This document shows positions 1,015 through 59,876 of a stretch of 64,000 nt of DNA, piece by piece. Origin of the DNA: Geobacter sp. SVR. GTDB taxonomy: Bacteria; Desulfobacterota; Desulfuromonadia; Geobacterales; Pseudopelobacteraceae. The notes beneath the pieces are model-generated. The model had not been told where the DNA came from. It saw only the letters and a list, made by a program, of their open reading frames with translations, and did not search any database. Every line of letters starts with the position of its first letter. The stretch's first letter is position 1. Position numbers and translations under genes: made by a program. The stretch spans positions 3,626,501-3,690,500 of the forward strand of contig NZ_AP024469.1 in the NCBI RefSeq assembly GCF_016865365.1, read 5' to 3'.

Positions 1015-2235
1015 TCAGGCCTTGAGGGAGAGGAGCTTGCGGTAGCTGGCAACCAGCTGCAGGGCGCGCACATCCCATGAGTGCGTGCCGACCGCCCGCT
1101 CCCGGGCACGACGTCCCAGTTCCGTGCACAAACCGCGATCCTTCAGCACGCTGACGATGCAGGCGGCAAGCGCCGAGGCACTGCCGTATTCGGCGTAGAC
1201 AGCATCCTCGCCGAGGATTTCGCGGTTGATCTCACTTTCGAAAGCCACCACCGGCAGGCCGCAGGCCATGTAGTTGAAAAGCTTGCCATTGGCCTCGGTA
1301 CGCGCCAGTTTCGGCGAGACTGCCAGATCCCCCGCACTCAGCATGAGAGGGGCACGATCATAGGGGACGCGGCCGGTGAAGATGATGCAGTCATCGATTC
1401 CCATCCGGGCGGCCTTGCGGCGGTATTCCTCGTCCGGAAACCCCATCAGGAGGAATCGCGCATCTGCCATCCCGGCCCTGACCAGGGGTATTGCCTCCAG
1501 GAGCAGATCAACTCCCTGGTAACGGTTGAACAGCCCCAGATAGACCACCAGGGGAACGCCGTCCGGAATGCCTAGGTAGCGGCGAGCCTCTGCGCGCGGG
1601 TAAGGTCTGAACTCTTCCGTGTCCACGCCATCCATGAGGGTGTCGACGCTGCCGGAAGCCATGCCCCAGCCGCTGACGAGTTCGTTCGTCCCCTCCCCGG
1701 AGCTGGTAATGATGGCGTCGGCGCTTCTGTTTATGGCCCCTTCCAGGAACGTAAAAAGACGGTGGCGCTTTGATCCCTGCCGAAAGAAGGCATGGTTGAG
1801 CACCTCACCGGTAAGGCTTCCCTGATAATCGAACAGGAGGGGAATACGGAGCATCCGTTTGAGGATACTGCCGACAAATGCTCCTTCATGGAGATGGGCG
1901 TGGATCAGATCGGGCCGGAATGAACGAGCAACCGAACGGGCTTTCTGCAGTAGCAGCAGATCGAGGTAGGGCTTGTGCCAAGAGGGACCCGCTTCCAGCT
2001 TTTTGTACCAGGGGACCGGCGGAATCCTGAACACCGGGATATCCGGCATGTCACGTCCCAGATGGTACGTGACGATGCACACCTCATGGCCGAGCTTCTT
2101 CAGCGCCCTGGCCTCTTCGTAGATCCTGACATGGCAACCCCGGTCGGAAAAATACGGCGTGGGGGCCAGCATAAGGATGCGCAGGGGCTTGGGGCTTGGG
2201 GACTGGGGACTGGGGACTGGGGGAAAGCTACTCAT
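1015..2235 (-). CDS. Glycosyltransferase family 4 (GT-B, WcaJ/RfaB type)
   Basis: This 406-residue protein has the two-lobed GT-B pattern. The N-terminal lobe contains LRILMLAPTPYFSDRGCHVR and DLIHAHLHEGAF, and the C-terminal nucleotide-sugar lobe contains VPLVVYLGLFNRYQGVDLLL and the ESEINREIL region that in GT4 enzymes carries the EX7E motif (here SPKLARTEANGK followed by FNYMACGLPVVAFE). It probably adds a sugar to a lipid-linked surface glycan in the cytoplasm, together with the two GT2 genes upstream. The first 17 residues (SSFPPVPSPQSPSPKP) are translated from the heptamer repeat at 2184-2223. The start codon overlaps the stop of the four-helix-bundle gene, so the original N-terminus was probably near the internal Met at LRILMLAP. 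Donor and acceptor cannot be told from sequence. Confidence 0.9.
   Translation of the reverse strand: MSSFPPVPSPQSPSPKPLRILMLAPTPYFSDRGCHVRIYEEARALKKLGHEVCIVTYHLGRDMPDIPVFRIPPVPWYKKLEAGPSWHKPYLDLLLLQKARSVARSFRPDLIHAHLHEGAFVGSILKRMLRIPLLFDYQGSLTGEVLNHAFFRQGSKRHRLFTFLEGAINRSADAIITSSGEGTNELVSGWGMASGSVDTLMDGVDTEEFRPYPRAEARRYLGIPDGVPLVVYLGLFNRYQGVDLLLEAIPLVRAGMADARFLLMGFPDEEYRRKAARMGIDDCIIFTGRVPYDRAPLMLSAGDLAVSPKLARTEANGKLFNYMACGLPVVAFESEINREILGEDAVYAEYGSASALAACIVSVLKDRGLCTELGRRARERAVGTHSWDVRALQLVASYRKLLSLKA
2184..2223. repeat. Left arm of heptamer inverted-repeat element (five tandem units)
   Basis: On the plus strand five heptamers run in phase: GGGGCTT twice then GGGGACT three times, ending in GGGGG. 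It is the inverted partner of 2595-2625. Together they enclose the four-helix-bundle gene. This arm is translated as the N-terminus of the GT4 gene. Confidence 0.9.
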
Positions 2236-2593
2236 GTGTGACCATTTTGCTTCGATAATACCGGATCAGGCCGTTTAATAACTTTTTTAACGAAGATAAC
2301 CGCATCAGGAGTTGATCGGAGTTTTGCAGATAGTTCAATTTTTCCGAGATGATTATCTGGGTTTCCAGCTCTGATGCCGATCCTAAAGCAATAAAGAGAA
2401 ATTGGATAAATTCCTTGCCTGTCTGTCGTGCAGCGCCTTCTGATATGTTTGATGGTATGGAAACCGCTGCCCGGCGCATTTGCGCAGTTAATCCAAAAAG
2501 TTCTTCCTTGGGAAATCGCCGCGTCAGCTCGTATACCTCTTTTACCAAGTCAATTGAGAGCTGCCAGACTTCAAGATCCTTGTGATCTCTCAC
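2228..2593 (-). CDS. Four-helix-bundle protein, 23S rRNA intervening-sequence (S23/IVP) family
   Basis: The 121-residue protein matches the family known as four helix bundle protein or 23S rRNA intervening-sequence protein: KDLEVWQLSIDLVKEVYELT at the N-terminus, then FGLTAQMRRAAVSIPSNISEG and a run of amphipathic helix with GSASELETQIIISEKL. The family was first found in insertions of 23S rRNA and is related to the Avd accessory protein of diversity-generating retroelements; its own activity is not established. The gene begins with GTG at 2593, three bases from the right heptamer arm, and the GGGGACT unit there is the only ribosome-site-like sequence. It stops four codons before the left arm and overlaps the GT4 start. 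It thus fills the element exactly and is probably its cargo or helper, not part of glycan synthesis. Confidence 0.88.
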   Translation of the reverse strand: MRDHKDLEVWQLSIDLVKEVYELTRRFPKEELFGLTAQMRRAAVSIPSNISEGAARQTGKEFIQFLFIALGSASELETQIIISEKLNYLQNSDQLLMRLSSLKKLLNGLIRYYRSKMVTHE

Positions 2594-2594
2594 G

Positions 2595-2625
2595 CCAGTC
2601 CCCAGTCCCTAATTCCCAGTCCCCA
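2595..2625. repeat. Right arm of heptamer inverted-repeat element
   Basis: Four in-phase units AGTCCCC, AGTCCCT, AATTCCC and AGTCCCC form the reverse complement of the array at 2184-2223. The stop codon of the upstream GT2 gene lies in this arm. Confidence 0.9.
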
Positions 2626-9386: not shown

Positions 9387-9403
9387 GTATACCCCCTGAA
9401 CTT

Positions 9404-9525
9404 CTGCCACAGAGGCACAGAGACACAGAGAACTGCAAAGACAAAACAAAGGAAGAACAAAACCCGGGGCTTAAACAGAGCTTTGCTCTCTTGTTTTTCC
9501 TTTGCGCCTCTGTATCTTTTGGCAG
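9404..9525. repeat. ACAGAG-type inverted-repeat element, copy 1
   Basis: The left arm CTGCCACAGAGGCACAGAG continues with ACACAGAGAACTGCAAAG; the right arm ending at 9525 is its reverse complement with changes (CTTTGCGCCTCTGTATC then TTTTGGCAG). The arms consist of a repeating ACAGAG unit and enclose about 45 bases with no gene. Similar copies lie at 13872-13996, 37321-37449 and 46988-47118. Confidence 0.8.
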
Positions 9526-11396: not shown

Positions 11397-12677
11397 TTAC
11401 GGATGCGGGAAGTCGATATTCTCCATGAACTTCGTTTCAAACAGCGGCGTTCCGGAAAGAGGTACCACCCGGAAGCGTTCGGCTAGGCGTTCCACGACGG
11501 AAAAGCCATCCTTCTCCGTCAGGGCCCGTTCCACGCCGGCCAGCGCCCCCTCGGGGGCAAAGCGGGTAATATGTACCATGGCTGAATCGAAAATTCCAAC
11601 GCTTTTAAGCCATTCGGGGCGTAAAACCGTACCGAATGATCCGGTCAGAACCACTTCCTGCATGCTCTGACACTGTATACGCGCCCGTTCCGCAAGCACA
11701 TCCAGGCCGGCCCGGATGGCACTTTTGGCCAGCTGGATCTGGCGGATGTCCCCCTGGGTCAGCAACAGCAGGTGCCGGGCATCACGGTGAAGTACAAAGG
11801 CGTTCTCATCATTGTGCCGGACAATCCGGGCAGCCAGGTTGGAAGGGATCTCGCCGCCGTCCCGCAGGCGTCCGCTCGATTCGAGCAGCCCCTTCTCGAG
11901 CAGTTCCGAGACCACCTCAATGGCTGCGGACCCGCAGATGCCGATCGGCGGCACATTGCCGATCACCGTGCAATGAACCCGTTCACCTGCGATGGTTACG
12001 GAGTTGATCGCACCGGGCAAGGCGGCCATGCCGCACGAGAGGTTGCCCCCTTCGAAGGCGGGACCGGCAGCAGCCGCGGTGGCCCAGATGTCATCCCCAG
12101 CCACCAGGGCCATTTCGCCGTTGGTGCCCAGATCGAGAAACAGGGCCTGGGAACTGGGGACTGGTGATTGGGAAAAGCCGTTACCAGTCCCCAATCCCCG
12201 GTCCCCAGTCCCAAATAAAAACGCCACCGTATCCCCCCCCACAAAACCGCCCGGCATGGGAAACAGGTAGACCGCCGCGGCGGGGTCCCAGCCGAGGTCG
12301 GAACCGTTGAGCCGCACGCCCTGCGTGTAAAGGGGCCGGAACGGGGGAAAGGCCAGGGAGCGTACCGGCAGTCCCAACAGAATGTGCTGCATGGCGGGAT
12401 TGCCGGCGATTGCAATCTGCTCGACATCGCTGCGCACAAGCCCGGAGTCCCGCAGAAGCCCGTCCGACAACCTCCACAGCTCCGCCCGCGCCAGGCCCGA
12501 CATCTCCCGCAGGGCTTCCTCGGATCTGACGGCAGCATCCAGTCGCGACACGACATCGGCCCCGAACCGGCGCTGCGGATTCAGGGAGCCTGCCACGGCC
12601 AGCCGCCGGCCGCTGCGGAGATCAACCAGGGAAACGGCCAGAGTGGTGGTGCCCAGGTCGATGGCAAGTGCGTACAT
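11397..12677 (-). CDS. ASKHA-domain protein related to corrinoid-protein reductive activators (DUF4445/RACo C-terminal type)
   Basis: The 426-residue protein starts with the ASKHA phosphate-binding motif (ALAIDLGTTTLAVSLVDL) and contains NPQRRFGADVVSRL, AGNPAMQHILLGL, GGFVGGDTVAFLF, LDLGTNGEMAL and GICGSAAIEVVSEL. These are the marks of the C-terminal domain of RACo/RamA-type activators, which reduce inactive Co(II) corrinoid proteins with ATP. The N-terminal 2Fe-2S ferredoxin domain of that family is absent. Between FLFG and ALFLDLGTNGE an extra segment of about 22 residues (GTGDRGLGTGNGF and SQSPVPSSQ) is encoded by a heptamer palindrome at 12148-12213 and interrupts a normally short loop. 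The partner corrinoid protein is not in the window. The neighbour selD is co-directional, 102 bases upstream. Confidence 0.8.
   Translation of the reverse strand: MYALAIDLGTTTLAVSLVDLRSGRRLAVAGSLNPQRRFGADVVSRLDAAVRSEEALREMSGLARAELWRLSDGLLRDSGLVRSDVEQIAIAGNPAMQHILLGLPVRSLAFPPFRPLYTQGVRLNGSDLGWDPAAAVYLFPMPGGFVGGDTVAFLFGTGDRGLGTGNGFSQSPVPSSQALFLDLGTNGEMALVAGDDIWATAAAAGPAFEGGNLSCGMAALPGAINSVTIAGERVHCTVIGNVPPIGICGSAAIEVVSELLEKGLLESSGRLRDGGEIPSNLAARIVRHNDENAFVLHRDARHLLLLTQGDIRQIQLAKSAIRAGLDVLAERARIQCQSMQEVVLTGSFGTVLRPEWLKSVGIFDSAMVHITRFAPEGALAGVERALTEKDGFSVVERLAERFRVVPLSGTPLFETKFMENIDFPHP
12148..12213. repeat. Heptamer palindrome inserted in frame in the ASKHA gene
   Basis: Left arm units GGGAACT, GGGGACT and GGTGATT face right arm units AGTCCCC, AATCCCC, GGTCCCC and AGTCCCA across a spacer of 16 bases. 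The total is 66 bases, or 22 codons, so the reading frame is kept. Unit and arrangement are the same as at 2184-2625. Confidence 0.85.
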
Positions 12678-16321: not shown

Positions 16322-19300
16322 ATGACATCCCTTCGAAAACGTCTGGACATACTCTTTGCCCTTGTCGCCGTACTTTGCCTTCTCCTCGGCGCATTGCCCG
16401 CAGGGGCTGCCGTGGGTCGGCACGAGGTCGTCTTCATTGATGCAGCGGTGCAGGACGCCCAGGCACTGGCGGATGGGATCAGGCCGGGGGTGGAGGTGGT
16501 CCGGCTTGACGCCGGACGGGACGGATCGGAACAGATGAGTGAGGTATTGGCCCACAGGCGGAATTTACAGGCAATTCATGTGATTTCTCACGGTGGGGAT
16601 GGCGAAATACAGCTGGGTACTCTGAAACTTTCCAATACCACTATCAATGATAAAAAAGCTGCGCTTGCTGCCATTGGTCAAGCATTGGTACCGGGAGGAG
16701 ACCTGCTCATTTATGGTTGTAATGTGGCCAAAAGTGCTTCGGGCAAGGAATTGATCAGCTCGCTGGCCAAAATAACAAAGGCGAATGTGGCTGCATCCAG
16801 TAACAACACCGGGGGGCTTGCAGGCGCGGATTGGGTTCTGGAGTATGCAACCGCTCCGGTTTCCTCGCCGGTCGCCATCGCCAGCACGGTAACCGATGCT
16901 TACAGATATAACCTGACGGCGCCGTACAGCGGAACCATCGATTTCGACAACAATGGAACCATAATAAATGCAGGCGGGGGGATTCCTGCGACCTTGGCGT
17001 CCTATAGTATCGGCGGGTATCTACTGACCGCAACGGACAACGGCGATATTGATATTTTTGACGCTGGCAGCGGCTCCGGCAACGAGCTTTTATTTGGTAC
17101 GAGCACTAGCGACGCTACAAATGTCGTCGTCAAGTTTTCCAACGACGAAGTCTTCAACATCGCCTCGCTCCGTATAAATGTTTTTCCTGGCGTGGATGTA
17201 GCTCATGGTCAGACTCCATATAATGCGGTATACACCATTTCGGGCTACAACGGGAGCACTCTGGTAAGTTCGGTCAATACGAACACTCTTTACGACCCCG
17301 GATACACTGTTAATTATGCAAACAGTATCCAAGTCGTAACCCTGAATTTCACCAATATCACCAAATTTACCATATCCAGATATTCCAGTAACGCGCCGGG
17401 AACAGGTATCGGTTGCACCATCGACAATCTGGTCGTGAGCAACGTCCACGCCGCCGCCACCCACACCGTCACCTTCGACGCCAACGGCGGCAGCGGCAGC
17501 ATGACCGTACAGACCTCCGGCAGCGCCACCGCCCTTACGTCCAACAGCTTTACGCGCACAGGTTACGCCTTTGCGGGCTGGAATACCGTTTCCGGCGGTG
17601 GTGGCACTGCCTACGCCAACGGCGCCAGCTATGGATTCGGCGCAGACGTAACGCTGTACGCACAGTGGACGGCTGTTGCCGCTGCTCCTACCGTTACCAC
17701 CCAGGCGGTATCGTCAATAGCCGCGACCACGGCTACCGCTAACGGCAACATAACCAGTCTCGGTTCACCCAACCCTACCCAGTATGGCGTGGTGTGGAAT
17801 ACCTCCACCGGCCCGACCACGGCTAACTCTAAAACCACCCAGGGGGCCATAGCCGCCACCGGCGCATTCACCAGCAGCATGACCGGACTCTCTCCCAATA
17901 CCACCTATTATGTCAGGGCATATGCCACCAATACGGCAGGTACCTCGTATGGTACTGAGGTTTCATTCACCACCAGCGGCGCTGCTCCAACTATCACCTC
18001 CGCCACCTACGACGCCAGCACCAACGCCCTGACCGTCACCGCCACCGGCATGACCACCAGCGATACCATCAATACAACCAAGCTGACCCTGACCGGCGAA
18101 GGCGGCAACACCTACACGTTGGCCGGCAGCTATACAGTCACGGCCAGCAACGCCACCTCCTTCTCCGTTACTCTCGATGCTACCGACCAACTCAACATCA
18201 GGGGCCTGCTGAATAAAAACGGCGCGACCGCGGCCGGCGGCACCACGTACAACCTGGCCGGCGCGGCCGGTTGGGACTCGACCCAAAGCGCCCCAGCCGA
18301 CCTGACCGGCAACGGGGTAACGGTCAGCAACGTACAGACCCCCACCATCACCTCCGCCACCTACGATGCCGGCACCGGGGTGCTCGTGGTCACCGGCGCC
18401 AACCTAGTCAAACAACCGGGCGCAACCAACGACATCGACGTGACAAAACTGGCCCTGACCGGACAAGGGGGCAGCGTCACCCTGACCGGCAATACCGCCA
18501 ATGTGGAAATCACCTCCGCCACCTCGTTCTCCGTGACCCTGGGCAGCACCGACAAGGCGGCGGTCAACGCCAAACTGGACAAGAACGGCACTTCTTCCAC
18601 CGGTAGTGTGACCTATAACCTGGCCGCCGCCGACGACTGGAACGGGCCGATTACCGGGGGCAGCATTGCCGATACGACCGGCAACGGGGTGACGGTGAGC
18701 GGGGTAGTGACAACCCCGAATGTGCAGGTCTATTACATCAGCAGCGATGGCAACGGATCTACCTTGGGCGCCACCGATGCTTTGAACCGTATCAACTCAG
18801 ACGGTAGCGGCGATACCGTTATTGCAAGTTCGATCAATCCAACACCGGGAGATTTGGCGTTGGATGTTGCTAATAACCGTGCCTTTTTCATCGGTGCGAC
18901 CACGACCAGCGCAAGCCAAGGTGTCTATCGTGTTGATCTGACCACCGGGGTAGTTTCCACCATCAAATCACTGACGACTGCCCCTAGTTATGGGGGAATC
19001 GCTTACGATTCGATAAACGACTATGTCTATTACATCGGCAGCGATGGTTCGACATCTACGCTCGGCGCAACCGATGCCCTGAATCGCATCAAGCCGGATG
19101 GCAGCGATGATACCGTCATTGCAAGTTCGATCAATCCGGCGCCAGGCGACCTGGCATTAGACATTGCGAACAATCGCGCTTTTTTCATCGGCGCGACCGG
19201 CTCAACACCAGGAGTTTATGGTATCGACCTGTCCTCCGGGACGGTTTCTACCATCAAAACGCTGACGACTGCTCCTGTTTATGGCGGCATTGCTTATGAT

Positions 19301-22300
19301 TCGATAAACGACTATGTCTATTACATCAGCAGCGATGGGGTATCTACGCTCGGCGCTACCGACGCCCTGAATCGCATCAAGCCGGATGGCAGTGGCGATA
19401 CCGTCATTGCAAGTTCGATCAATCCGGGGCCCGGCGACCTGGCATTGGACCTTCCGAATAATCGCGCCTTTTTTCTCGGTGCGGCCGGCTCGGCGCCAGG
19501 TGTCTATAGTATCAATCTGTCCTCCGGGGCGGTTTCAACCATCAAAACGCTGGCGGCGGTTCCAGCGTATGGCGGCATTGCTGTTACGGATGGCACTACT
19601 CCGACTTTCGATCCGGCAAATTCGTCACCTGTCGGCAACGCGACCGGCGTCAGCGGAACCGCCAATCTGTCCTTGCGTTTTAGTGAGGCCGTTATCAAAG
19701 GAACCTCGGGCAATTTCGTGATCCGCGACGTCACGGCCAATACGACGCTTGAAACCATTGCCTATAACGATGCCCGCGTGACCGGCTGGGGCACGAATAC
19801 GTTGACCATAGACCCCACGTCTACGTTGCCGTCGGGGCATGCGGTTTCCGTCCAATGGAGTGCGGGCGTAATCCAGGATTATTACGCTAACTTCGTCGCA
19901 GCCAACGCCACGGATACGCTTTACGACCTTACGATTGGCGGTTCTGCCGGTCCTGCCATTACCTCCGCCACTTACGACGCCAGCACCAACGTCCTGACTG
20001 TCACCGCAACCGGAATGAGCGCCGGCGACGTAATTGACACAACGAAACTGACCCTGACCGGAGAAGGCGGCAACACCTACACGTTGGCCGGTAGCTATAC
20101 GGTCACTGCCAGCAGCGCCACCTCCTTCTCCGTTACTCTCAATGCTACCGACCAACTTAATGTCAGGGGCCTGCTGAACAAGAACGGCACGACCGCGGCC
20201 GGCGGCACCACGTACAACCTGGCCGGTGCGGCCGGTTGGGACTCGACCCAGAGTGCCCCAGCCGACCTGACCGGCAACGGAGTGACGGTCAGCACCGTAC
20301 AGACCCCCACCATCACCTCCGCCACCTACGATGCCGGCACCGGGGTGTTGGTGGTCACGGGCGCCAACCTGGTCAAGCAACCGGGCGCAAGCAACGACAT
20401 CGACGTGACCAAATTGACCCTGACCGGACAAGGGGGCAGCGTCACCTTGACCGGCAACACCACCAATGTGGAAATCACCTCCGCCACCTTGTTCACCGTG
20501 ACCCTGGGCAGCACCGACAAGACGGCGGTCAACGCCAAGCTGGACAAGAACGGCACTTCTTCCACCGGCAGCGTGACCTATAACCTGGCCGCCGCCGACG
20601 ACTGGAATGGGCCGATCACGGGTGGCAGCATTGCCGATACGACCGGCAACGGCATCACGGTGAGCGGGGTGGCGACGCCCAACACCGCCCCTGTCATAAC
20701 CAGCTTAAACGGCGATGCGATGGCGTACACAGCGGGAACCGGGGCGCGGGTGATCGATCAGGGGACGGCGGTTGCCGTCACCGACAGCGACAGTGCCAAT
20801 TTTGATACCGGCACGTTAACCGTATCGGTCAGTGGCGCAACGGCGGCTGACGTGCTGGGCATCCGCAACCAGGGAAACGGTAGCGGGCTGATCGGCGTCA
20901 GCAGCGGCAACGTGACCTATGGCGGCACGACCATCGGCAGCTTCTCCGGCGGCAGCGGCTCCAATCTGGTGGTGACATTTAACAGCAACGCTACACCGAC
21001 AGCAGCTTCCGTGCTGCTTGCCAACATCACCTACAGCAATGCCAGTGCGGTCAGCGCCACAACGCGCTCAGTCAGTTTCACGATCACCGACGGCGACGGC
21101 GGCACCTCGACCGCCAGCACCGTTACCATCAGCGTCACACCCGCCAGTGTCGGCACGATTTACACCGTAACCAACCTCAACGACAGCGGCGCCGGTTCTC
21201 TGCGTCAGGCCATTATTGATTCCAATGGTCACACCGGTGCGGACACGATTGTCTTTACCCCCGGTTTGTCCGGCACGATTCATCTGCTTAGCAGGCTTGA
21301 CATCACAGACAGCGTCACGATCCAAGGCCCTGGTGCCGATGTCGTGACTATTGACGGCGCCAGTGCCACGCAGTTTCTGAAAACTGAAAATGGGGATGTT
21401 ACTACCAATATAAAAGTCACTATCACTGGTTTGGCCTTCGATCATGGCCGGATGGTTGATAACGACCCTGACCTCGGCTATGTCGGTGCGATTGATAACC
21501 GTGAAGACCTGACGCTTTCAAATGTTATCGTGAAAAATACTGCGGTAGGCACCCAATATCACGATGCCGCTTTTGCTGTTTCGACAATAGCTTCTGATTA
21601 CGCCACGTATGTGCCTAAACTGACCATACGTAACAGTGTAATTACCGGCAACGCGGGAACAGCGATTTTCTCTATTGCCGCAGCGTTGGTGGATATTGAA
21701 AACTCGACCATATCGAACACCAGCTTTATCGAAGGATCAGCGGGAGGAGGACTGAGTATCAATGGAGTGAGTTCAACGGTTATCAAGGGCAGTTATATTG
21801 CCGGCAATTCAGCCAAGTCTGGATCGGCACTATATTTCAGCCCGAGCAATAACTCCAGTGAAACGCTCTGGATCGAAAATTCCACCATTACCGGAAATAT
21901 CTCCGACCCAACAGGCTCGGGAGCTGGCGATGTCGATGGTGCGCTGGGGATTAACGCTTCCCTTGTCACCGCAGGCATGATCACAATCAAAAACTCCACA
22001 ATAGCAGGTAATCCCGGATACAACGGTGCTGCCAAACAAATTACCACCCCCTTGGGTAACGGCACCGATATTCCGATGCAGATAACCAACTCGATCGTGT
22101 ATTACGATGGCACTGGTGATGTGAAGTTTTCTACGGATCAGAACATCACTGCCAGCTACAACGTGATCGAAAACGTCGCGACCATTGACACGGCCATAGG
22201 CAATGTGACCGCGAACCCCAACCTTGTGGCGGCGGCGGCCAATGGCGGTCCTACTGAAACTTTGGCACTCAATTCAAGCAGTAACGCGATTAATTTGGGA

Positions 22301-25300
22301 GCTGCTTCCGCACCCACGACTGACCAACGCGGCTTCGTCCGCAACCCGGCGTCTGGAGTGGATGCTGGCGCTTACGAATACGGTGCTACGCAGTTTCAGT
22401 TCATCGGCCAGTCCAGACCGCTTGATGGAGCGGTAAATGTGGCGGTAAACTCAGGCATTACTCTGGATTTCGGAAGTACAATATCTGCCGGCACTGGAAG
22501 CATGCGTATCTACAATGCCGACACAAACGCACTGATTGAAACCATTTCGGTCGCAAGTGCCACCGTTTCCGGCAGCAGGGCGACATTCACACCTTCGTCC
22601 TCTCTCCCTGGCAGTACTAATATCTATGTTGAGGTGGATGCCGGAACTTTCACCGCCAGTGTTGACGGCGGCACCAACAACGCCGGCTCGGTTGCCATGC
22701 GTGATGCAACGGGCATCAGCTTCAAAACCGCATCCGCATCATCCACCTACACCGTCACCTACAACGGCAACGGCAACACCGGCGGCAGCGTGCCGACGGA
22801 CAGCAACAGCTACGCTAACGGCGCCACGGTCACCGTGCAAAGCAACAGCTTCGGCCTCACCCGGAGCGGTTATGTCTTTGCCGGCTGGAACAGCCTGGCC
22901 GACGGCACCGGCACGGACTATGCCGCCACCGGCAGCGCCACCTTCACCATGGGCAGCGCCAATAGGACGCTGTATGCCAAGTGGACGGCCGTCACCGGTC
23001 CCGGCGCCACCACCAGCGCCGCCACCGGTGTGGGACCCGACAGCGCCACCCTGAACGGCACCGTGACCGGCAGCGGTTCGTGGACCAGTGTCGGCTTCGA
23101 ATACGGCACAACCACCAGCTACGGCAGCTTCTCCAATGCAAGCCCCCGCATCCTCACCACCGGAGGAGCTACGGCGGTGACCGCCACGGTTACCGGACTC
23201 AGTTGCAGCACCACCTATCATTTCCGCGTTAACGGACAAAACAACGGGGGCGATCTGACGAACGGCTCCGACCTGACCTTCACCACAAGCGCCTGCACCG
23301 TCCCCGGTGCCCCCACCATCGGCACCGCTACGGCAGGCGACACCAAGGCAGTCGTTTCTTTCACCCCCCCGGCCGGCACCGGCGGCTCCGTCATTACCGG
23401 CTATACCGTTACTTCATCCCCCGGAAACATCACTGCCACCGGCACTGCCAGCCCCATCGTGGTGTCCGGCCTGACCAACGGCACCCCCTACACCTTTACG
23501 GTGACCGCCACAAATGCGCCGGCAGTGGCAGGCCAGAGCGCAGCTTCCGCAGTTTCCAATGCGGTCACCCCCTCGGCCTCCAGCCTGGGCATTGGAAGTG
23601 TAAAGATCATCAAGTTCGCCCTTAACGGCAGCAACCAGCCCACCGATGCCACGATCCAGGTAGCCGCCACCAACGCGGTACTCGGCGCCGGCGCCTTTAC
23701 CGTCACCAACAATGCGAATCCCTCCGCCACCATAACCGTGACCGGCGCTTCCTATGCCAATGGGGTGTATACCCTTACCGTCAGCGGCATGAACGTGATT
23801 GACACCTACACCCTCGCCGTCGCAGCCAACGGATACACGACCTACACCAATACCGGCGTCATCTATGGCCGGCCGTCGGAAGCCGGTGATCTCGACCTGG
23901 TGAATGAACCGAATATTTTCACCACCTACACCCGCACCCTCACCTCCGACGGAGTAGTGACCATCGGTAATGCCACCTACGCAGCCGGCGCGGTGCTCTA
24001 CTCCGGCGCAGCCTACGATGCCATCGACGGCAACAACGGCAATCCGGACAATGGAACCGTAACGCGCCTGATCGGCATCTTCGGCAAGGCGCCCAGCGGG
24101 GCAGCCTGCGTCAAAACCCTGCGGACCGACGGCACGATCCTGCAGGTGGCGAACGACTCCCTCATAGACGCCAACCCCAATTTCATGGAAACCATCCAGG
24201 GGGGCAAGGCGGCCTACGACGCAAACGCCAGCAACACCATCTATTGGCAGACCCTGGCCCTGCTTCCCATGTACAGTCAGATCGCTACGGCCCGCCAGCC
24301 GGACAACTCCCGTATTCTGGTGGACCCGGCCGACCGGTTCCGCATCATCGAGTGGTACGACACTGTGGACGTCAACGGTAACTGCACCGGCACACCCATG
24401 GATGTTCAGCGGCTGACAGTCAAGGTGGAATACACCGGCACTGCCGTTGGCCAGACCTCGGGATCAACGACCAGCATCGCCACCCAGCCGGCCGATGCCT
24501 CGGTCAGCGTCAACGGGACCGCCACCCTCACGGTGGGCGCAAGCACCACCAGCGGTTCGCTCTCCTACCAGTGGTACAGCAGTGCCACCAACAGCACCAG
24601 CGGCGGTTCCGCCATTAATGGCGCCACCTCCGGCAGCTACTCCCCGCCGACCGCATCGGCAGGCACCACCTACTATTACTGCATGGTGACCAACTCCGCC
24701 GGCAGCACGGGTACAAGCCGCGCCGCCCAGGTGGTGGTCTTGGCCCCCCAGACCATCGGCACGGTTTCCTTTACTCCCGCCTCCCTGCTGCCGAACGGCA
24801 CGGCTACGGTCAGCGCCACAGCCACTTCCGGCGGTGCGGTGACGTTCACATCCCTGACTCCGTCGGTATGTAGCGTCAGCGGAACTACTGTAACCGCCCT
24901 CACGGCCGGGGTCTGCAGCATTGCCGCCAACCAGGCGGGGAACACCACCTACGACACCGCACCCCAGGTGATCGGCACCATCACCGTCGCTGCTGCCGCC
25001 AACCGGGTGCACCTGACCCACAATTCGGCAACGACCGCGTACAACACCATCCAGGAGGCGGTCAACGCCTCGGCGGATGGCGATGTCATTGCCCTTGATT
25101 CCGGCACGTTCATCGAGCAGGTGACCATCACCACCAATGTCACCATTCAAGGGGCCGGAATCGGCCAGACCATCATTCAGTCCCCCTCTGCCGCAAGCCT
25201 GCTGCAAAACGGCGGCACCTGGAGAAACCTGAGAAACAAGAGCGTGTACGCGATCGTTGGCATCAAAACCGTGACCCCGGGCACCGTTACCATCACCGGC

Positions 25301-28300
25301 CTCACCGTGGACGGCCAAGTCCAGGGCAACATAAACCAGCCGGCCAACACCTACGGGTTCATGGGCATTGCCGCCATCAACTCGAACCTCACCGTGGACG
25401 GCGTGCGCATAACCGGCGTCAGGGATCTCAACCTGAACGCCGCCAGCATGGACCCCATCCCTGATTCGAGCTACGGCGCCACCCACACCTCGGGAGCGGA
25501 CAGCGGCGAGAGTATCTTCGCGGAAAGCGCCGCCGGCGCCGGCGAACATACCCTGGTGGTGAGAAACAGCACCATGGACGACATCCAGAAAGATGGCATC
25601 CTGGCCTGGGGCCCGACCCTGACGGTCGATATCCACGACAATACCATCCAGGGGCGCAAGACCTTCTACCAGTCGATAAACGGGATACAGATCGGCAGCT
25701 CGGACTACACCTCTTCCGGCGGCGGCGACCGGCGGGGCACCAAGGGGAGCGTCTCCAACAACACCATCCTCGATCTGGGCATGGTCATCCCGGTGGGACA
25801 CACCACCAGCGGGCTCTGGTTCAACGGCTGGGTCGGCGGCTCCACCGGCATCCTGGTATGGGAGGCCGGCAACGGGGTGACAGTTACGGGCAACACGATT
25901 ACCCGCACCGGCGACAAATCGTGGAAACTGGAATGGTACGCCAACCAGGGGATCGACTTCTACCTTTCACCGAACCCCACCGTAAGTAACAACACGGTTT
26001 CCGGGTTCGATTACGGCATCCTCGAAGAGGGCGCATCAAACGGCTCGGTCCTGACCGCGAGTGGAAATATCCTGTCAGCCAATACCGTTGACCTGTGGGC
26101 TTCTTCCGGCAATGACCAGATCACCCTGAACAATGCCAATAGTGAAGTGATCGGTTATCTGCTTTCCGGAAACGGCACCGATACGCTGACCAATTTCGGC
26201 ACGGGTGATGCCATCTACGTCAACAGCCTGGATGGCAGCAGCAGTTGGAACTTCACCGGCGGCACGGTAACGAGCGGCAACGGAAGCAACGTGGCCGCGC
26301 ATTCGGTACAAGTATCGGTTTCAGGTAACACCACGACTCTGTACATCGATACGGACGGCAATGCCGGTCCGGCCGAACTGCAAATCAACCTTGTCGGAAC
26401 GTATCTTCCGGCCAACTTTGTGCTGAGCGGCGCCTACATCCAATTCACCAAGGCCGGTCAGACCATCACCTTTGCCAATCCGGGCAGCCAGACCTACGGT
26501 ACGACGCCGACGCTGAGTGCCAGCGCCAGTTCCGGCCTTGCTCCCATATTCACTTCGTCCACCTCCGGCGTCTGCACCATCACCCCGGAAGGTGCCCTGA
26601 CTCTTGTCAGCGGCGGCACGTGCACCATCAACGCCAACCAGGCGGGCAACGCCTACTACAATGCGGCACCTCAGGTGACGCAGAGTTTCACTGTGAATCA
26701 GGCGGGCCAGACCATCGGCTCCATTTCCTTCACCTCCTCTTCCCTGACCGTATCGGGCACCACCACGGCCAGCGCCACCGCCACCTCCGGCGGTGCAATA
26801 ACCTTCAGCTCTCTGACGCCGTCGGTATGCACCGTGAGCGGCAGCACTGTTACCGGTATCGCGGCCGGTGTCTGCACCATTGCCGCGGATCAGACGGGCA
26901 ATGGTGGCTATGGCGCTGCACCGCAGGTAACAAAGAGCATTACGGTCGCTGCAGCGGCCAACAAAATACACCTGATCCACAACACCACCACGACCGATTA
27001 CACCACCGTTCAGGGGGCCGTGGATGCGGCTGCGGACAATGACGTCATCATGCTTGATGCAGGCACCTTCATCGAGCAGGTGACCATCACCAAGCCGCTC
27101 ACCCTGCAGGGGGCCGGCGTCGATCAGACCATCATCCGCTCCCCTGCCCGGGACAGCCTGATACAGAGCGGCGGAAACTGGAAAAACCTCAAGGATCAGG
27201 ACGTCATCGCCGTGGTGGGCATCAAGACCGCTTCGCCCGGAACCGTCATCCTCAGGAACCTGACCGTGGACGGCAATGATCAGGGCTATCTTGCCGACCT
27301 GCGGTATCCGGACAAGGGCACCTATACCTTCCAGGGAATCGGGGCATACCACACTACCGTCACCATCGACACGGTGAAGGTGACCGGTGTGCGCGAACTG
27401 AACACGGACTACGGCAATGACCCGGCCCACATCGTGCCCGCCGATTACCTCCCGGCAGACCAGCCTGCGGGCATGAACCACAACGAGGGCATCTTTGCCG
27501 AGAGCGCCGCTGGAGCCGGTGCACATACCCTGACAGTGAAAAACTCCACCGTCACCAAGTTCCAGAAGACCGCTATCCTGGCCTGGGGGCCGACCCTGAC
27601 GGTGGACATCGACAACAACACCATCCAGGGTTACGGCAAGAGCCTCTGGAGCACCGGCAACGCCATCCAGGTCGGATCTTCCGACAGAAGCGCCATGGGA
27701 GGCGCCAACGGAGACCGCCGCGGTACGGCGGGAACGGTCACCAACAACCGGATTCTGGACATCGGTATCGTCATACCGGAACCGGGACAGGACGGCTCCT
27801 ACCTGAATCTGGGACTGGCCGGCCCCTCCGGCGTCCTGCTGTGGGAGGTCGCCGACAGCTTCCGGATCACCGGCAACACCATCACCGGCCCCGGCATTTT
27901 CTCCTGGCACAGCAACATTTCTTCCAACGACGGCGGGTTCGGCAACATGGGGATCAATGTCTATAAAGGCCCCAATGTCACCATATCCGGCAACACGATT
28001 TCCGGGTTCGACGTCGGCATTATCGAAGAGAGCGCTGCCGTTGCCTCCAGTCTGGCCATTTCGGGCAACACCATGTCGAACAACACCGACGACATCTGGA
28101 CCTCAGCGGGCAATGACCACGTTTCGCTGGGCAGCGGCAGCGAAACCATCGCATTCAACCAGAGCGGCAACGGCATCGATACCATCACCAACTTCGGCAC
28201 CGGCGACAAAATTCATGTCATCGGCTTTACCACCGTCGGCGGAGTGGACTCGGTCAATGGCCTGATCAACGGTCAACCGGTGGTGGATTTCACCGGCGGT

Positions 28301-31018
28301 TCCGTGACAGCCGGGGACGGCAGCACTGTGGCAGCCAGATCGGTGCATGTCTCGGCGAGTGGGAACACCACCACGCTGTATGTGAATACCGACGGTGTTT
28401 CCGGCTCGCAATTGCAGATCACCCTTGACGGGACCTACACGCCCGCCAACTTCGTCCTGAACGGCGGGTACATCCAATTTACCAGGATTAACCAGACCAT
28501 CACCTTCGGCAACCCCGGCAACCAGATCTACGGATCAGGGGGAACACTGGCCGCAACCACTTCGTCCAATCTGGCTGTCACCTTCACATCCGCCACCCCC
28601 GGCGTCTGCACGGTGAGCAGCGACGGGACAATTACCTTCGTCGGTACCGGCACCTGCACCATCGTGGCCGACCAGACCGGTAATACTTTCTACAATCCCG
28701 CGTCTCACATGACACAGTCCTTCATCGTGGGCAAAGCCACTGCTTCCGTAACCCTCGGCGGTCTCAGCCAGACCTACGACGGCACGGCAAAATCGGCCAC
28801 CGCCACCACCACTCCCGCCGGCAGGACCGTCACCTTCACGTACGACGGCAGTTCCACTCCTCCGGTCAATGCCGGCAGCTACAACGTCGCGGCCGCGATC
28901 AACGACCCCAATTACAGCGGCAGTGCCAGCGGCACGTTGGTGATCGCCAAGGCGGGTCAAACCATCACGTTCGGCGCCGCTCCGTCGATCGTGGTGGGGA
29001 GCACCGGTACGATGAGCGCCACAGGCGGCGCATCCACCAGTGCCGTCAGCTTCAGCTCCACCACCCCGTTAGTCTGCACCATCAACGGCACTACCGTCAC
29101 CGGTATCGCAGCCGGCACCTGCATCGTCGCAGCGGACCAGGCAGGCAATGCCAACTATAACGCCGCACCCCGGGTGACGCAGACCATTACCGTCGGCAAG
29201 GGCAGCCAGACCATCACCTTCGGGGCGGCACCCAGCGTAGTGGTGAACGGCATCGGCACGCTCAGCGCTGTGGTCTCGTCCGGGCTCACGGTTTCCTATA
29301 CTTCCGTGACTCCCACGGTCTGCACCGTTAGCGGCGCCACTGTAACCGGCGTTGCGGCCGGTACCTGCACCATCGCCGCTGACCAGGCGGGGGACAATAA
29401 TTATAATGCCGCGCCCCGGGTGACGCAGAACATCACCGTTGGCAAGGGAAGCCAGACCATCGGTGCCATTGGCTTCACCTCCTCTACCCTCACCGTGGGG
29501 GCCACTGTCACGGCCAGCGCCACCGCCTCTTCCGGCCTGGGGGTCACTTTCAGTTCCCTGACGCCTGGTGTGTGCAGCGTAAGCGGAAGCACGGTTACCG
29601 GCATCACGGCCGGCATCTGCACCATCGCCGCCAGCCAGGCCGGTGATGCCAATTACAACGCCCCCACCCAGGTGACGCAGAACATCACCGTCGGCAAGGG
29701 AAGCCAGACCATCGGTGCCATCGGCTTCACACCCTCTACCCTCACCGTGGGGAGCACTGTCACGGCCAGCGCCACCGTCTCCTCCGGTCTGACCGTCGCC
29801 TTTGCCTCCACCACCCCCGCGGTCTGCACCGTCAGCGGCACCACGGTCACCGGGGTGAGCCCGGGCACCTGTACCATCACTGCCACCCAAACCGGCAACA
29901 GCGACTACACCTCCGCCACCATCAGCCAGACCCTGACCGTGGCCTACGGCACCAATCCGCCGCTGCTGACCGTATCCGCCCTCTCCGATGGGGCGACCAC
30001 CACCGACACCACCCAGAACATCAGCGGTGTGGCCACGGACCCGGCCGGCATCAGGTCCCTCACCATCAACGGCACGACCGTCCAGGTCAATGCGGACGGC
30101 AGCTTCAGCTTCCCGGTGCAACTGCTGGCCGGCGCCAACACCGTCACCGTAGTGGTCACCAACAAGGCCGGCATAACCACCACCGACACCCGCACCATCA
30201 CCCTGGACAGCACCGCACCACGCCTGTCGGTCACCTACCCGCCCGACAACGCCGTGGCTGTCCAGCAGAGCGTTACCGTAACCGGTACCATTGAATCCCT
30301 GTTCAGCGGGGGGTCGTCCAAGACCGCAGCCAAAACTGCTGCCGCTACGGTCGACCCCACCCTGGTGGTCACCTGGTCGGCCAACGGTTCGGCCCCCCAG
30401 ACCGCCAGCCTGACCGACACCACCTACTCCTTCACCACCAGCCTGGGCACCGGCATGAACACCATCAAGGTCTTCGCAGCCAATGCCGCCGGCCAGAAGG
30501 TGGAGGCCAAGCGCACCGTCAGCTACCAGCCGGCCTTCTACCTGGCAGTCACCGACCCGGCCGCTGACATCCGCACGGCACTGGGCTCCTACACCCTGAC
30601 CGGGAACGTAACCGACAACACCACCCCGGTCAGCGTCACCATCACCATGGACGGCCAGACCTACACCCCCGCGGTGACCAACGGTGTCTTCAGCCAGACC
30701 TTGAACTTCAGCGAAGCCCAGGTCTACCAGGTGGCGGTCACCGGCACGGACCAGAACAGCAACAGCCTGACCGTACAGCGCAACATCATCTACACCGTGC
30801 CCAAGGCAGCCTCCGGATCTGCCGACAGCACCCCCTTCACCATCGTGGATGCCCTGCAGGCCCTTCAGATGTCCGTTGGCATCATCACTCCCGATGCCGG
30901 GCAGATTACTCGCATGGATGTGGCCCCCATGGTGAACGGCGTCTCCGTGGGAGACGGCAAAGTGGACATCGAGGATGCCGTGGTGATCCTGCGCATGGTC
31001 GTGGGATTGATACGGTGA
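16322..31018 (+). CDS. Giant exported multidomain protein: DUF4347, beta-helix and Ig-like repeats, C-terminal dockerin-like domain
   Basis: At 4898 residues this is by far the largest gene. Order seen: signal peptide (1-30); DUF4347 (34-193) with HVISHGG (His90) and LIYGCNVA (Cys133); an anchor-type beta domain (200-377); InlB-type B-repeat (379-453); Fn3-like (454-550); repeat A1 (555-798); three propeller-like repeats (800-1093); Big_5-like (1094-1210); repeat A2 (1212-1456); cadherin-like (1457-1613); parallel beta-helix (1613-2023); Big_5-like; second B-repeat (2140-2223); two Fn3; Ig-like; second beta-helix (about 2895-3375) with a short RTX-like GNGTDTLTNFGTGD; third beta-helix (about 3545-4055); a run of Big/MBG repeats; and a dockerin-like end (about 4837-4898) with DAPMVNG-type and GDGKVDIEDAVVILR calcium loops. 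AAGGAG precedes the ATG. It is probably an adhesin or glycan-binding surface protein; ligand unknown. Confidence 0.9.
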   Translation: MTSLRKRLDILFALVAVLCLLLGALPAGAAVGRHEVVFIDAAVQDAQALADGIRPGVEVVRLDAGRDGSEQMSEVLAHRRNLQAIHVISHGGDGEIQLGTLKLSNTTINDKKAALAAIGQALVPGGDLLIYGCNVAKSASGKELISSLAKITKANVAASSNNTGGLAGADWVLEYATAPVSSPVAIASTVTDAYRYNLTAPYSGTIDFDNNGTIINAGGGIPATLASYSIGGYLLTATDNGDIDIFDAGSGSGNELLFGTSTSDATNVVVKFSNDEVFNIASLRINVFPGVDVAHGQTPYNAVYTISGYNGSTLVSSVNTNTLYDPGYTVNYANSIQVVTLNFTNITKFTISRYSSNAPGTGIGCTIDNLVVSNVHAAATHTVTFDANGGSGSMTVQTSGSATALTSNSFTRTGYAFAGWNTVSGGGGTAYANGASYGFGADVTLYAQWTAVAAAPTVTTQAVSSIAATTATANGNITSLGSPNPTQYGVVWNTSTGPTTANSKTTQGAIAATGAFTSSMTGLSPNTTYYVRAYATNTAGTSYGTEVSFTTSGAAPTITSATYDASTNALTVTATGMTTSDTINTTKLTLTGEGGNTYTLAGSYTVTASNATSFSVTLDATDQLNIRGLLNKNGATAAGGTTYNLAGAAGWDSTQSAPADLTGNGVTVSNVQTPTITSATYDAGTGVLVVTGANLVKQPGATNDIDVTKLALTGQGGSVTLTGNTANVEITSATSFSVTLGSTDKAAVNAKLDKNGTSSTGSVTYNLAAADDWNGPITGGSIADTTGNGVTVSGVVTTPNVQVYYISSDGNGSTLGATDALNRINSDGSGDTVIASSINPTPGDLALDVANNRAFFIGATTTSASQGVYRVDLTTGVVSTIKSLTTAPSYGGIAYDSINDYVYYIGSDGSTSTLGATDALNRIKPDGSDDTVIASSINPAPGDLALDIANNRAFFIGATGSTPGVYGIDLSSGTVSTIKTLTTAPVYGGIAYDSINDYVYYISSDGVSTLGATDALNRIKPDGSGDTVIASSINPGPGDLALDLPNNRAFFLGAAGSAPGVYSINLSSGAVSTIKTLAAVPAYGGIAVTDGTTPTFDPANSSPVGNATGVSGTANLSLRFSEAVIKGTSGNFVIRDVTANTTLETIAYNDARVTGWGTNTLTIDPTSTLPSGHAVSVQWSAGVIQDYYANFVAANATDTLYDLTIGGSAGPAITSATYDASTNVLTVTATGMSAGDVIDTTKLTLTGEGGNTYTLAGSYTVTASSATSFSVTLNATDQLNVRGLLNKNGTTAAGGTTYNLAGAAGWDSTQSAPADLTGNGVTVSTVQTPTITSATYDAGTGVLVVTGANLVKQPGASNDIDVTKLTLTGQGGSVTLTGNTTNVEITSATLFTVTLGSTDKTAVNAKLDKNGTSSTGSVTYNLAAADDWNGPITGGSIADTTGNGITVSGVATPNTAPVITSLNGDAMAYTAGTGARVIDQGTAVAVTDSDSANFDTGTLTVSVSGATAADVLGIRNQGNGSGLIGVSSGNVTYGGTTIGSFSGGSGSNLVVTFNSNATPTAASVLLANITYSNASAVSATTRSVSFTITDGDGGTSTASTVTISVTPASVGTIYTVTNLNDSGAGSLRQAIIDSNGHTGADTIVFTPGLSGTIHLLSRLDITDSVTIQGPGADVVTIDGASATQFLKTENGDVTTNIKVTITGLAFDHGRMVDNDPDLGYVGAIDNREDLTLSNVIVKNTAVGTQYHDAAFAVSTIASDYATYVPKLTIRNSVITGNAGTAIFSIAAALVDIENSTISNTSFIEGSAGGGLSINGVSSTVIKGSYIAGNSAKSGSALYFSPSNNSSETLWIENSTITGNISDPTGSGAGDVDGALGINASLVTAGMITIKNSTIAGNPGYNGAAKQITTPLGNGTDIPMQITNSIVYYDGTGDVKFSTDQNITASYNVIENVATIDTAIGNVTANPNLVAAAANGGPTETLALNSSSNAINLGAASAPTTDQRGFVRNPASGVDAGAYEYGATQFQFIGQSRPLDGAVNVAVNSGITLDFGSTISAGTGSMRIYNADTNALIETISVASATVSGSRATFTPSSSLPGSTNIYVEVDAGTFTASVDGGTNNAGSVAMRDATGISFKTASASSTYTVTYNGNGNTGGSVPTDSNSYANGATVTVQSNSFGLTRSGYVFAGWNSLADGTGTDYAATGSATFTMGSANRTLYAKWTAVTGPGATTSAATGVGPDSATLNGTVTGSGSWTSVGFEYGTTTSYGSFSNASPRILTTGGATAVTATVTGLSCSTTYHFRVNGQNNGGDLTNGSDLTFTTSACTVPGAPTIGTATAGDTKAVVSFTPPAGTGGSVITGYTVTSSPGNITATGTASPIVVSGLTNGTPYTFTVTATNAPAVAGQSAASAVSNAVTPSASSLGIGSVKIIKFALNGSNQPTDATIQVAATNAVLGAGAFTVTNNANPSATITVTGASYANGVYTLTVSGMNVIDTYTLAVAANGYTTYTNTGVIYGRPSEAGDLDLVNEPNIFTTYTRTLTSDGVVTIGNATYAAGAVLYSGAAYDAIDGNNGNPDNGTVTRLIGIFGKAPSGAACVKTLRTDGTILQVANDSLIDANPNFMETIQGGKAAYDANASNTIYWQTLALLPMYSQIATARQPDNSRILVDPADRFRIIEWYDTVDVNGNCTGTPMDVQRLTVKVEYTGTAVGQTSGSTTSIATQPADASVSVNGTATLTVGASTTSGSLSYQWYSSATNSTSGGSAINGATSGSYSPPTASAGTTYYYCMVTNSAGSTGTSRAAQVVVLAPQTIGTVSFTPASLLPNGTATVSATATSGGAVTFTSLTPSVCSVSGTTVTALTAGVCSIAANQAGNTTYDTAPQVIGTITVAAAANRVHLTHNSATTAYNTIQEAVNASADGDVIALDSGTFIEQVTITTNVTIQGAGIGQTIIQSPSAASLLQNGGTWRNLRNKSVYAIVGIKTVTPGTVTITGLTVDGQVQGNINQPANTYGFMGIAAINSNLTVDGVRITGVRDLNLNAASMDPIPDSSYGATHTSGADSGESIFAESAAGAGEHTLVVRNSTMDDIQKDGILAWGPTLTVDIHDNTIQGRKTFYQSINGIQIGSSDYTSSGGGDRRGTKGSVSNNTILDLGMVIPVGHTTSGLWFNGWVGGSTGILVWEAGNGVTVTGNTITRTGDKSWKLEWYANQGIDFYLSPNPTVSNNTVSGFDYGILEEGASNGSVLTASGNILSANTVDLWASSGNDQITLNNANSEVIGYLLSGNGTDTLTNFGTGDAIYVNSLDGSSSWNFTGGTVTSGNGSNVAAHSVQVSVSGNTTTLYIDTDGNAGPAELQINLVGTYLPANFVLSGAYIQFTKAGQTITFANPGSQTYGTTPTLSASASSGLAPIFTSSTSGVCTITPEGALTLVSGGTCTINANQAGNAYYNAAPQVTQSFTVNQAGQTIGSISFTSSSLTVSGTTTASATATSGGAITFSSLTPSVCTVSGSTVTGIAAGVCTIAADQTGNGGYGAAPQVTKSITVAAAANKIHLIHNTTTTDYTTVQGAVDAAADNDVIMLDAGTFIEQVTITKPLTLQGAGVDQTIIRSPARDSLIQSGGNWKNLKDQDVIAVVGIKTASPGTVILRNLTVDGNDQGYLADLRYPDKGTYTFQGIGAYHTTVTIDTVKVTGVRELNTDYGNDPAHIVPADYLPADQPAGMNHNEGIFAESAAGAGAHTLTVKNSTVTKFQKTAILAWGPTLTVDIDNNTIQGYGKSLWSTGNAIQVGSSDRSAMGGANGDRRGTAGTVTNNRILDIGIVIPEPGQDGSYLNLGLAGPSGVLLWEVADSFRITGNTITGPGIFSWHSNISSNDGGFGNMGINVYKGPNVTISGNTISGFDVGIIEESAAVASSLAISGNTMSNNTDDIWTSAGNDHVSLGSGSETIAFNQSGNGIDTITNFGTGDKIHVIGFTTVGGVDSVNGLINGQPVVDFTGGSVTAGDGSTVAARSVHVSASGNTTTLYVNTDGVSGSQLQITLDGTYTPANFVLNGGYIQFTRINQTITFGNPGNQIYGSGGTLAATTSSNLAVTFTSATPGVCTVSSDGTITFVGTGTCTIVADQTGNTFYNPASHMTQSFIVGKATASVTLGGLSQTYDGTAKSATATTTPAGRTVTFTYDGSSTPPVNAGSYNVAAAINDPNYSGSASGTLVIAKAGQTITFGAAPSIVVGSTGTMSATGGASTSAVSFSSTTPLVCTINGTTVTGIAAGTCIVAADQAGNANYNAAPRVTQTITVGKGSQTITFGAAPSVVVNGIGTLSAVVSSGLTVSYTSVTPTVCTVSGATVTGVAAGTCTIAADQAGDNNYNAAPRVTQNITVGKGSQTIGAIGFTSSTLTVGATVTASATASSGLGVTFSSLTPGVCSVSGSTVTGITAGICTIAASQAGDANYNAPTQVTQNITVGKGSQTIGAIGFTPSTLTVGSTVTASATVSSGLTVAFASTTPAVCTVSGTTVTGVSPGTCTITATQTGNSDYTSATISQTLTVAYGTNPPLLTVSALSDGATTTDTTQNISGVATDPAGIRSLTINGTTVQVNADGSFSFPVQLLAGANTVTVVVTNKAGITTTDTRTITLDSTAPRLSVTYPPDNAVAVQQSVTVTGTIESLFSGGSSKTAAKTAAATVDPTLVVTWSANGSAPQTASLTDTTYSFTTSLGTGMNTIKVFAANAAGQKVEAKRTVSYQPAFYLAVTDPAADIRTALGSYTLTGNVTDNTTPVSVTITMDGQTYTPAVTNGVFSQTLNFSEAQVYQVAVTGTDQNSNSLTVQRNIIYTVPKAASGSADSTPFTIVDALQALQMSVGIITPDAGQITRMDVAPMVNGVSVGDGKVDIEDAVVILRMVVGLIR
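17985..18715 (+). repeat. Long internal direct repeat A, copy 1
   Basis: About 730 bases inside the giant gene, encoding two paired Ig-like units beginning TITSATYDASTNALTV and TITSATYDAGTGVLVV. It is nearly identical to 19954-20690, differing by scattered substitutions. Confidence 0.85.
18720..19590 (+). repeat. Three tandem propeller-like repeats in the giant gene
   Basis: Three units of roughly 290 bases each encode YYISSDG, STLGATDALNRI, DTVIASSINP, PGDLALD and NNRAFF in the same order. They resemble the blades of a beta-propeller (LVIVD/YncE-like). Confidence 0.8.
19954..20690 (+). repeat. Long internal direct repeat A, copy 2
   Basis: This is the second copy of the repeat at 17985-18715, separated from it by the propeller and Big_5-like domains. 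The close DNA similarity indicates a recent duplication or gene conversion. Confidence 0.85.
25005..28490 (+). repeat. Paired beta-helix modules (two diverged copies)
   Basis: Segments 25005-26450 and 26955-28490 share the order IHLTHN-like start, TTVQ.AVD, DAGTFIEQVTIT, IQGAG..QTII, LTVDG, AESAAGAG.HTL, ILAWGPTLTVDI and GTGD. Each is a pectate-lyase/NosD-like right-handed beta-helix followed by a Big-type domain, so the whole unit was duplicated. Confidence 0.8.
28490..29945 (+). repeat. Tandem Big/MBG-type repeats
   Basis: Six units begin QTITFG or QTIGAIGFT and end with GTCTIAADQAG followed by VTQ and VGKGSQT. One MBG-type unit (VTLGGLSQTYDGTAKSATAT) lies at 28735-28955. Adjacent units are close at DNA level, favouring copy-number change by recombination. 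Confidence 0.8.
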
Positions 31019-32253: not shown

Positions 32254-32267
32254 AGACACGATACAAG

Positions 32268-32355
32268 GCCCTGGGGGAGTTCTGACGAACTGAGATGATT
32301 CCGCGGAATCAGACCCTTTGAACCTGAACCGGGTAATGCCGGCGGAGGAAAGCGG
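32268..32355 (+). ncRNA. TPP riboswitch (THI element)
   Basis: The conserved core is complete: CTGGGGGAG near the 5' end, GAACTGAGATGATTC, ACCCTTTGAACCTGA and GGGTAATGCCGGCGGAGGAA. It binds thiamine pyrophosphate in the nascent leader and would switch off thiED-thiC when TPP is plentiful. The following terminator at 32379-32421 is the likely expression platform. Confidence 0.95.
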
Positions 32356-32378
32356 CTCATGTGGTATTGCCCCTTGCG

Positions 32379-35302: not shown

Positions 35303-35340
35303 ACGGGTAGAAGCCTTGCGGCTCCTACCCGTTTTTTTAT
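35303..35340 (+). terminator. Rho-independent terminator of the thiamine operon
   Basis: The stem CGGGTAG(A)AGCC with GGCT(C)CTACCCG is followed by seven T. From 35341 to 35580 no gene, RNA or further repeat is evident. Confidence 0.88.
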
Positions 35341-35580
35341 CTCTCCGTCCTGCCGCCTGCTATAAGGACCTCCGGCGAGTTCCTTAACAGGTGGGCGACC
35401 ATATACTGCTTCAGGCAATTCCCGCGCAATGGGGCAGCACACCACAGTAGAGAAGGTCCCCCGTTCTTATGTTTATTCCGCCCGGGTACTGCAGCCGACA
35501 AACAGGACAGAGAGAATGTTTGTTGTATTATCACATCCGGCCATGGCCTTTACAAGCGATTTAAGATTAATATCCAGCCA

Positions 35581-37449: not shown

Positions 37450-37455
37450 TTGACG

Positions 37456-59722: not shown

Positions 59723-59876
59723 AAAGAATCGCAAGAACTATGCGTTCCGCGGGAGCGACCATGTCCCCGTGCCGTGCTTTTGCGCCGAAAACGAAAGAAT
59801 CACCTGACGCTGTTTCACTTCCACTCTGGTTCTGGTATTCTTGATCGTTACAGTAATGGCCTCACCGGGAGCGAAC

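Follow-up and report, generated by a model that had tools for sequence, protein, structure and literature searches.

A heptamer palindrome within a RACo-type activator gene of Geobacter sp. SVR, probably a gene-less copy of a repeat-armed element bearing a PF05635 gene

The STRR1 sequences of cyanobacteria are heptamer repeats, and the palindromic elements of Rickettsia are small palindromes read in frame in unrelated protein genes; the latter are not known to have tandem heptamer arms. The palindrome described in this work resembles the Rickettsia elements in being read in frame, and differs from them in organism and sequence. In Geobacter metallireducens and G. bemidjiensis, multicopy elements composed of four tandem heptanucleotides (GGGACCG, consensus GGACCGG) occur both in intergenic and intragenic positions, one family of G. 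bemidjiensis lying within genes without causing frameshifts, and they were interpreted as regulatory RNAs or regulator sites (PMC2700814, PMC2996986); four-helix or S23 genes are mentioned in neither of these two papers. G-rich heptamers are also described in Xanthomonas (GGGAATC) and Nostoc (GGGGAYT), with a preference for four units; those of Xanthomonas stand in inverted pairs, some of those of Nostoc are intragenic, and both are treated as G-quadruplexes generally not associated with mobile elements, the parts of that report consulted containing no link to PF05635 (PMC4692102). In the 23S rRNA IVS of Coxiella, an S23 ORF is preceded by tandem GACAGAT heptamers and the element has a 28-bp terminal stem (PMC4990558). 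The PF05635 accession is mentioned in the open-access literature in the context of Avd, the protein of diversity-generating retroelements, which has a related four-helix-bundle fold and gave a weak NCBIfam match here. An association of PF05635 with heptamer arrays was not found in the literature searched, which was mainly open-access with few preprints or subscription papers. Intragenic, non-frameshifting heptamers of Geobacter are already known, and the link to PF05635 appears to be new.

The locus compared here with these systems lies in a stretch of 64,000 nucleotides of Geobacter sp. SVR, referred to below as the window. The ORF at 11397-12677 (minus strand) encodes a 426-aa RACo-type ASKHA protein, similar to corrinoid activators, in which a Pfam profile search recovered both the RACo middle and the C-terminal ASKHA domains (Raco_middle, 2.3e-40; RACo_C_ter, 1.7e-58) and reported no N-terminal 2Fe-2S domain; its relatives in the PDB are 4c1n and 3zyy (E about 1e-52). 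A palindrome without any gene occupies 12148-12213 on the same strand and is read in frame as 22 residues, positions 157-178 of the protein. Its first arm (12184-12212, coding strand) is GGGACT GGGGACC GGGGATT GGGGACT GG, its second arm (12149-12170, coding strand) contains the inverted units AATCACC AGTCCCC AGTTCCC, and the apex between them on the coding (minus) strand is GGTAACGGCTTTTCCC; the 66 nt comprise the G-rich arm from 12149, the C-rich arm to 12212 and a flanking T/A pair. The ORF crosses the palindrome free of stops, reading FLF-GTGDRGLGTGNGFSQSPVPSSQ-ALFLDLGTNGE, with GLGTGNGFSQSPVPSSQ as the predicted peptide at the insert. A sequence-only reading of this DNA had announced a palindrome of GGGGACT-type heptamers at 12148-12213, in frame, without a stop and directly before LDLGTNGE, in a corrinoid-activator-like protein of the ASKHA type, and in all of this it was right, the units being of the form GGGGAYY.

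The palindrome is far from a chance arrangement of its letters, since its RNA hairpin (-44.2 kcal/mol, z -5.65) was equalled by none of 200 shuffles, and the window contains 27 occurrences of 13-mers of the GGGGACYGGGGAC type, the expectation being 7.1, with 0 of 100 shuffles reaching 27. AlphaFold2 gave the host protein an overall pLDDT of 88.9, falling below 50 at residues 160-170, a stretch placed between a helix (148-157) and a strand (178-182). The insert is thus predicted by the model to be a disordered surface loop on an intact fold, in line with the earlier suggestion that the enzyme may tolerate it. None of the six reading frames of a GGGGAYY array contains a stop codon, and because 7 and 3 have no common factor, every frame gives one and the same cyclic peptide; as about half of all 7-mers share the stop-free property, it permits such insertions and does not explain them. 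The copy would have persisted because the unit is stop-free, the length keeps the frame and the loop tolerates the insert, which most likely contributes nothing to the enzyme.

RACo matches were found in 43 of 57 related genomes, and 30 proteins, including that of the window, were aligned. Eleven of the 30 (genera g5-g8) have at this site a loop of seven residues, GAxPGEA or a close variant, so that the short loop, supposed beforehand to be usual in the family, belongs to many relatives and not to all. These short-loop orthologues measure 407-410 aa as against 426 aa here, and the earlier statement that 22 residues were added goes too far, the loop having 22 residues in place of seven and the net gain being about 15-16 residues. 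Repeat palindromes of 22-34 residues stand at the same site in seven proteins, five of them with GGGRAYY heptamers, each different (G000, which is the present genome, G001, G002, G018 and G012), and two with GGTAGA/GGTAAA hexamers (G021 and G009); other repetitive loops were seen in some more distant relatives (L033, L034, L036). For five of the seven inserts the predicted folding is much stronger than that of shuffled versions (z -3.7 to -5.7), as compared with a weak effect for G001 (z -1.9) and none for G009 (z -1.1). Neither a target-site duplication nor an exact empty site was found, and where short-loop orthologues exist the loop has been replaced rather than being simply empty. Since an ancestral-looking seven-residue loop was replaced and relatives carry their own, differing palindromes there, the event does not look like a clean 66-base insertion in a single lineage, and the idea that just these 66 bases were inserted once is not supported. 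The opposite pattern, one 22-residue segment common to distant genera, which the same reading had named as contrary to an insertion, was not seen in the orthologue alignment. The RACo protein tree leaves the branches among insert-bearing genera without resolution between one old and repeated insertion. Judged from the orthologue sequences, the loop would be a tolerant site that has been colonised or turned over repeatedly.

The heptamer is not confined to the RACo gene. Two consecutive GGGGAYY units gave 29 exact pattern matches in this genome and none for the reversed control, and the pattern was multicopy wherever RACo has a G-rich insert (29 in G000, 15 in G001, 12 in G002, 20 in G018 and 7 in G012), as against 0-2 matches in five genomes without such an insert (G009, G026, G016, G007 and G019). 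The AGGTARAG-type hexamer had 13 matches in G021, whose RACo insert is made of that unit and which carries both the heptamer and the hexamer families, and two in G009, whose insert resembles it. In a census built from the listed pattern matches and retrieved stretches, about 27 copies among the matches listed share the order (GGGGAYY)~4, GGTAAA, a loop of a few to about 100 nt, CTTTTACC and an inverted arm, with GGTAAA and CTTTTACC exact or similar between copies. In these arms of 3-4 GGGGAYY units, and in the spread of the roughly 27 listed loci over intergenic and intragenic positions, the family is like the heptanucleotide elements of other Geobacter. None of the heptamer elements matched an Rfam family.

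Most copies are intergenic, and at least three lie in frame within genes, whose names (ABC exporter and glycosyltransferase, as well as CobJ and CobQ below) were read from translations and not from a family search. The second in-frame element (60881-61028, plus strand), with heptamer arms and an 86-nt interior, lengthens the TMD-NBD linker of an ABC exporter (ORF 59841-61754), and the third is in a glycosyltransferase gene elsewhere in this genome (L169). In-frame elements in two other genes indicate that the event is not special to the RACo enzyme. In the exporter linker, heptamer or related arrays were also present in G001, G012 and G005, array-type inserts in L172, L178 and L190, and, in other genera, unrelated palindromic repeats (L173, L185, L187, L188), for example CCTGAGCGAAGCCGAAAGG. 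A linker that holds repeats of several kinds points to tolerance of such sites rather than to strict targeting, and disordered loops and linkers of enzymes may be regarded as places in which repeats land or are retained, bringing additional peptide segments. A single heptamer array also provides C-terminal codons of the ORF at 33938-35266 (35229-35256, plus strand). At G000 3411020-3411047 (L166), a four-unit array links CobJ-like and CobQ-like regions that share a single open frame, which may be a gene fusion made by the repeat. A tandem repeat of about 8 nt, of the CACAGAGA/CACGGAGA type, has inverted copies at 9399-9430 and 37420-37451 and occurs in L163; it is possibly a second family of like kind.

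The alternative that survives best is that the loop grew in place: slippage during replication, together with hairpin-templated (quasi-palindrome) correction, would have given the tandem and inverted units without a mobile element. The units are short and tandem, the arms vary in length, the arrays of the RACo loop differ between relatives, and disordered loops and linkers also gather the unrelated palindromic repeats just mentioned, all of which this process could produce. Slippage alone is nevertheless insufficient, because one unit with the inner motif GGTAA...CTTTT recurs at about 27 unlinked sites among the matches listed in this genome and because the RACo units usually agree with the multicopy family of the genome concerned; we consider this alternative unlikely.

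What a mobile form might look like is suggested by another locus of the window. A gene at 2228-2593 (minus strand) encodes a four-helix-bundle protein of the 23S rRNA IVP family (PF05635, 6.2e-38; TIGR02436, 5.3e-38), to which the PDB entries 2gsc and 2rld belong. It is accompanied on one side by a heptamer arm, GGGGCTT GGGGACT GGGGACT GGGGACT (2184-2224, plus strand), and on the other by an inverted arm (2597-2625, minus strand), and is probably the gene-bearing form of the heptamer element. In having a PF05635 ORF within an inverted-repeat stem, it is like the 23S rRNA IVS. The RACo copy, in contrast, has no ORF of its own, and whereas the IVS lies in 23S rRNA and is excised by RNase III, the present elements are intergenic or in mRNA, Rfam having detected no rRNA in the window. 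The position of this PF05635 element matches that of G012 and G047, with the same flanking sequences, which makes it an old resident; the three syntenic PF05635 elements (L039, L049 and L050) look old and vertically inherited, a point against the mobile-element reading given below. Phage carriage was considered and discarded, the protein of the element having no match among 50,697 phage records. The arrays at 2184-2235 and 2609-2625 extend neighbouring genes: a glycosyltransferase-like ORF ends ...INVGTGN in one of them, and the next ORF starts MSSFPPVPSPQSPSPKP in the other.

The gene-less and gene-bearing forms resemble each other in unit and inner ends. In a few loci, the inner ends of gene-bearing elements (GTAAAGGCAAAACC/GGTTTTGC in L047; GGTAAATGC/GCTTTTCCCC in L049) match those of gene-less copies, and the gene-less copies have the same unit and inner ends similar to those of the PF05635 elements L039 and L049, as is expected of a MITE. 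We consider it probable that the 66-nt palindrome of RACo derives from a repeat-armed element, complete copies of which have a PF05635 gene between inverted arrays, and that it is a MITE-like form lacking the gene. In Rhodanobacter, 85 matches were counted for the unit that flanks the PF05635 gene, often arranged as close inverted pairs, and five other genomes gave 0-3. That the flanking unit is amplified in every such genome was rejected, since in 400-kb samples amplification was absent in G056 and weak in G040. G018 and G002, in which GGGGAYY is multicopy, have no clear PF05635 gene. Transposition of the heptamer element was not observed, and its mobility and the mechanism thereof are inferred.

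The flanks of PF05635 genes elsewhere are consistent with this arrangement. Of the PF05635 genes inspected in related genomes, the majority have inverted short tandem arrays on their flanks, with a unit that varies by locus. For a wider view, 80 PF05635 loci from many phyla were taken as the best matches to a query alignment in the genome collection, and so are not a random sample; the inverted-arm score exceeded the 99th percentile of controls at 58 of them. Periodicity passed the threshold in 60% of flank segments as compared with 4% of control segments, the period being predominantly 7 and then 8, and most control segments above the threshold were themselves of period 7; no periodic flank was present on either side at 26 of 111 loci. 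Among 110 loci, the median arm match was 19 within a locus versus 9 between loci and 9 in direct orientation (p=1.6e-55, an indicative value that assumes independent between-locus pairs), and 38 different period-7 units were counted among 42 loci. Across more than 10 phyla, inverted 7- or 8-nt arrays thus border the majority of the PF05635 genes tested, nearly every locus having its own unit. On cyanobacterial plasmids, four of six PF05635 loci have inverted heptamers (GGGAGTA, GGGAACA, GGGTGTA, GGGAAAA). Ten PF05635 loci, the majority lacking clear arms, were also scanned for rRNA in their surroundings, and none was found.

As a broader hypothesis, to which we would give slightly less than an even chance, inverted 7- or 8-nt arrays with a PF05635 gene may constitute one class of mobile element in more than 10 phyla, of which the 23S rRNA IVS, the cyanobacterial and xanthomonad heptamers and the Geobacter heptanucleotides would be forms; the unit would be free to change, and the arms would be kept complementary by copying that involves the four-helix-bundle protein. 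If so, the heptamers of cyanobacteria, Xanthomonas and Geobacter, the S23 ORFs of IVS and the 'four helix bundle proteins' to which no role is assigned would be one element, and the orphan PF05635 family would have, in its own repeat arms, a substrate that can be tested. In the RACo gene, a palindrome copy would either have inserted into the disordered loop or have taken its place. It may be speculated that the element spreads with the help of the four-helix-bundle protein, itself related to Avd, through binding of this protein to the hairpin, and that the arms stay complementary by mutual copying, which we propose because units match within loci and differ between them.

The arrays could instead be selected regulatory RNA elements or regulator-binding sites, the RACo copy controlling expression from inside the gene, as its stable hairpin and the proposal made for the heptanucleotide elements of G. 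metallireducens (PMC2700814) would allow. This seems improbable, given that most orthologues have no palindrome, that the units show no conservation, and that the copies are scattered over intergenic sites and unrelated genes and match no Rfam family. Mobilisation as REP-type palindromes by a Y1 (RAYT/IS200) transposase is disfavoured and very improbable: Y1 transposase genes (PF01797) number 17 in this genome, and short G-rich palindromes have a general likeness to REPs, yet a GGGGAYY array lies within 1.5 kb of none of the 17, and the tandem 7-nt architecture is unlike REP hairpins. Hardly more credible is a selected, functional extension of the activator, such as a docking loop for which the repeat only supplied the material: seven genomes do maintain an open frame here, but length (22-34 aa), sequence and even the unit vary by genus and the model shows disorder.

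Some other features were noticed. Rfam located a tRNA (825-896), a TPP riboswitch (32263-32367) and a 6S RNA (35338-35516) in the window. At G000 208616-236763, five Y1 transposase genes with equal scores are spaced by ~6.95 kb, which suggests a tandem amplification or an assembly repeat. Finally, a 4898-aa ORF with many repeated segments extends over 16322-31018 of the window and probably encodes a giant surface protein.
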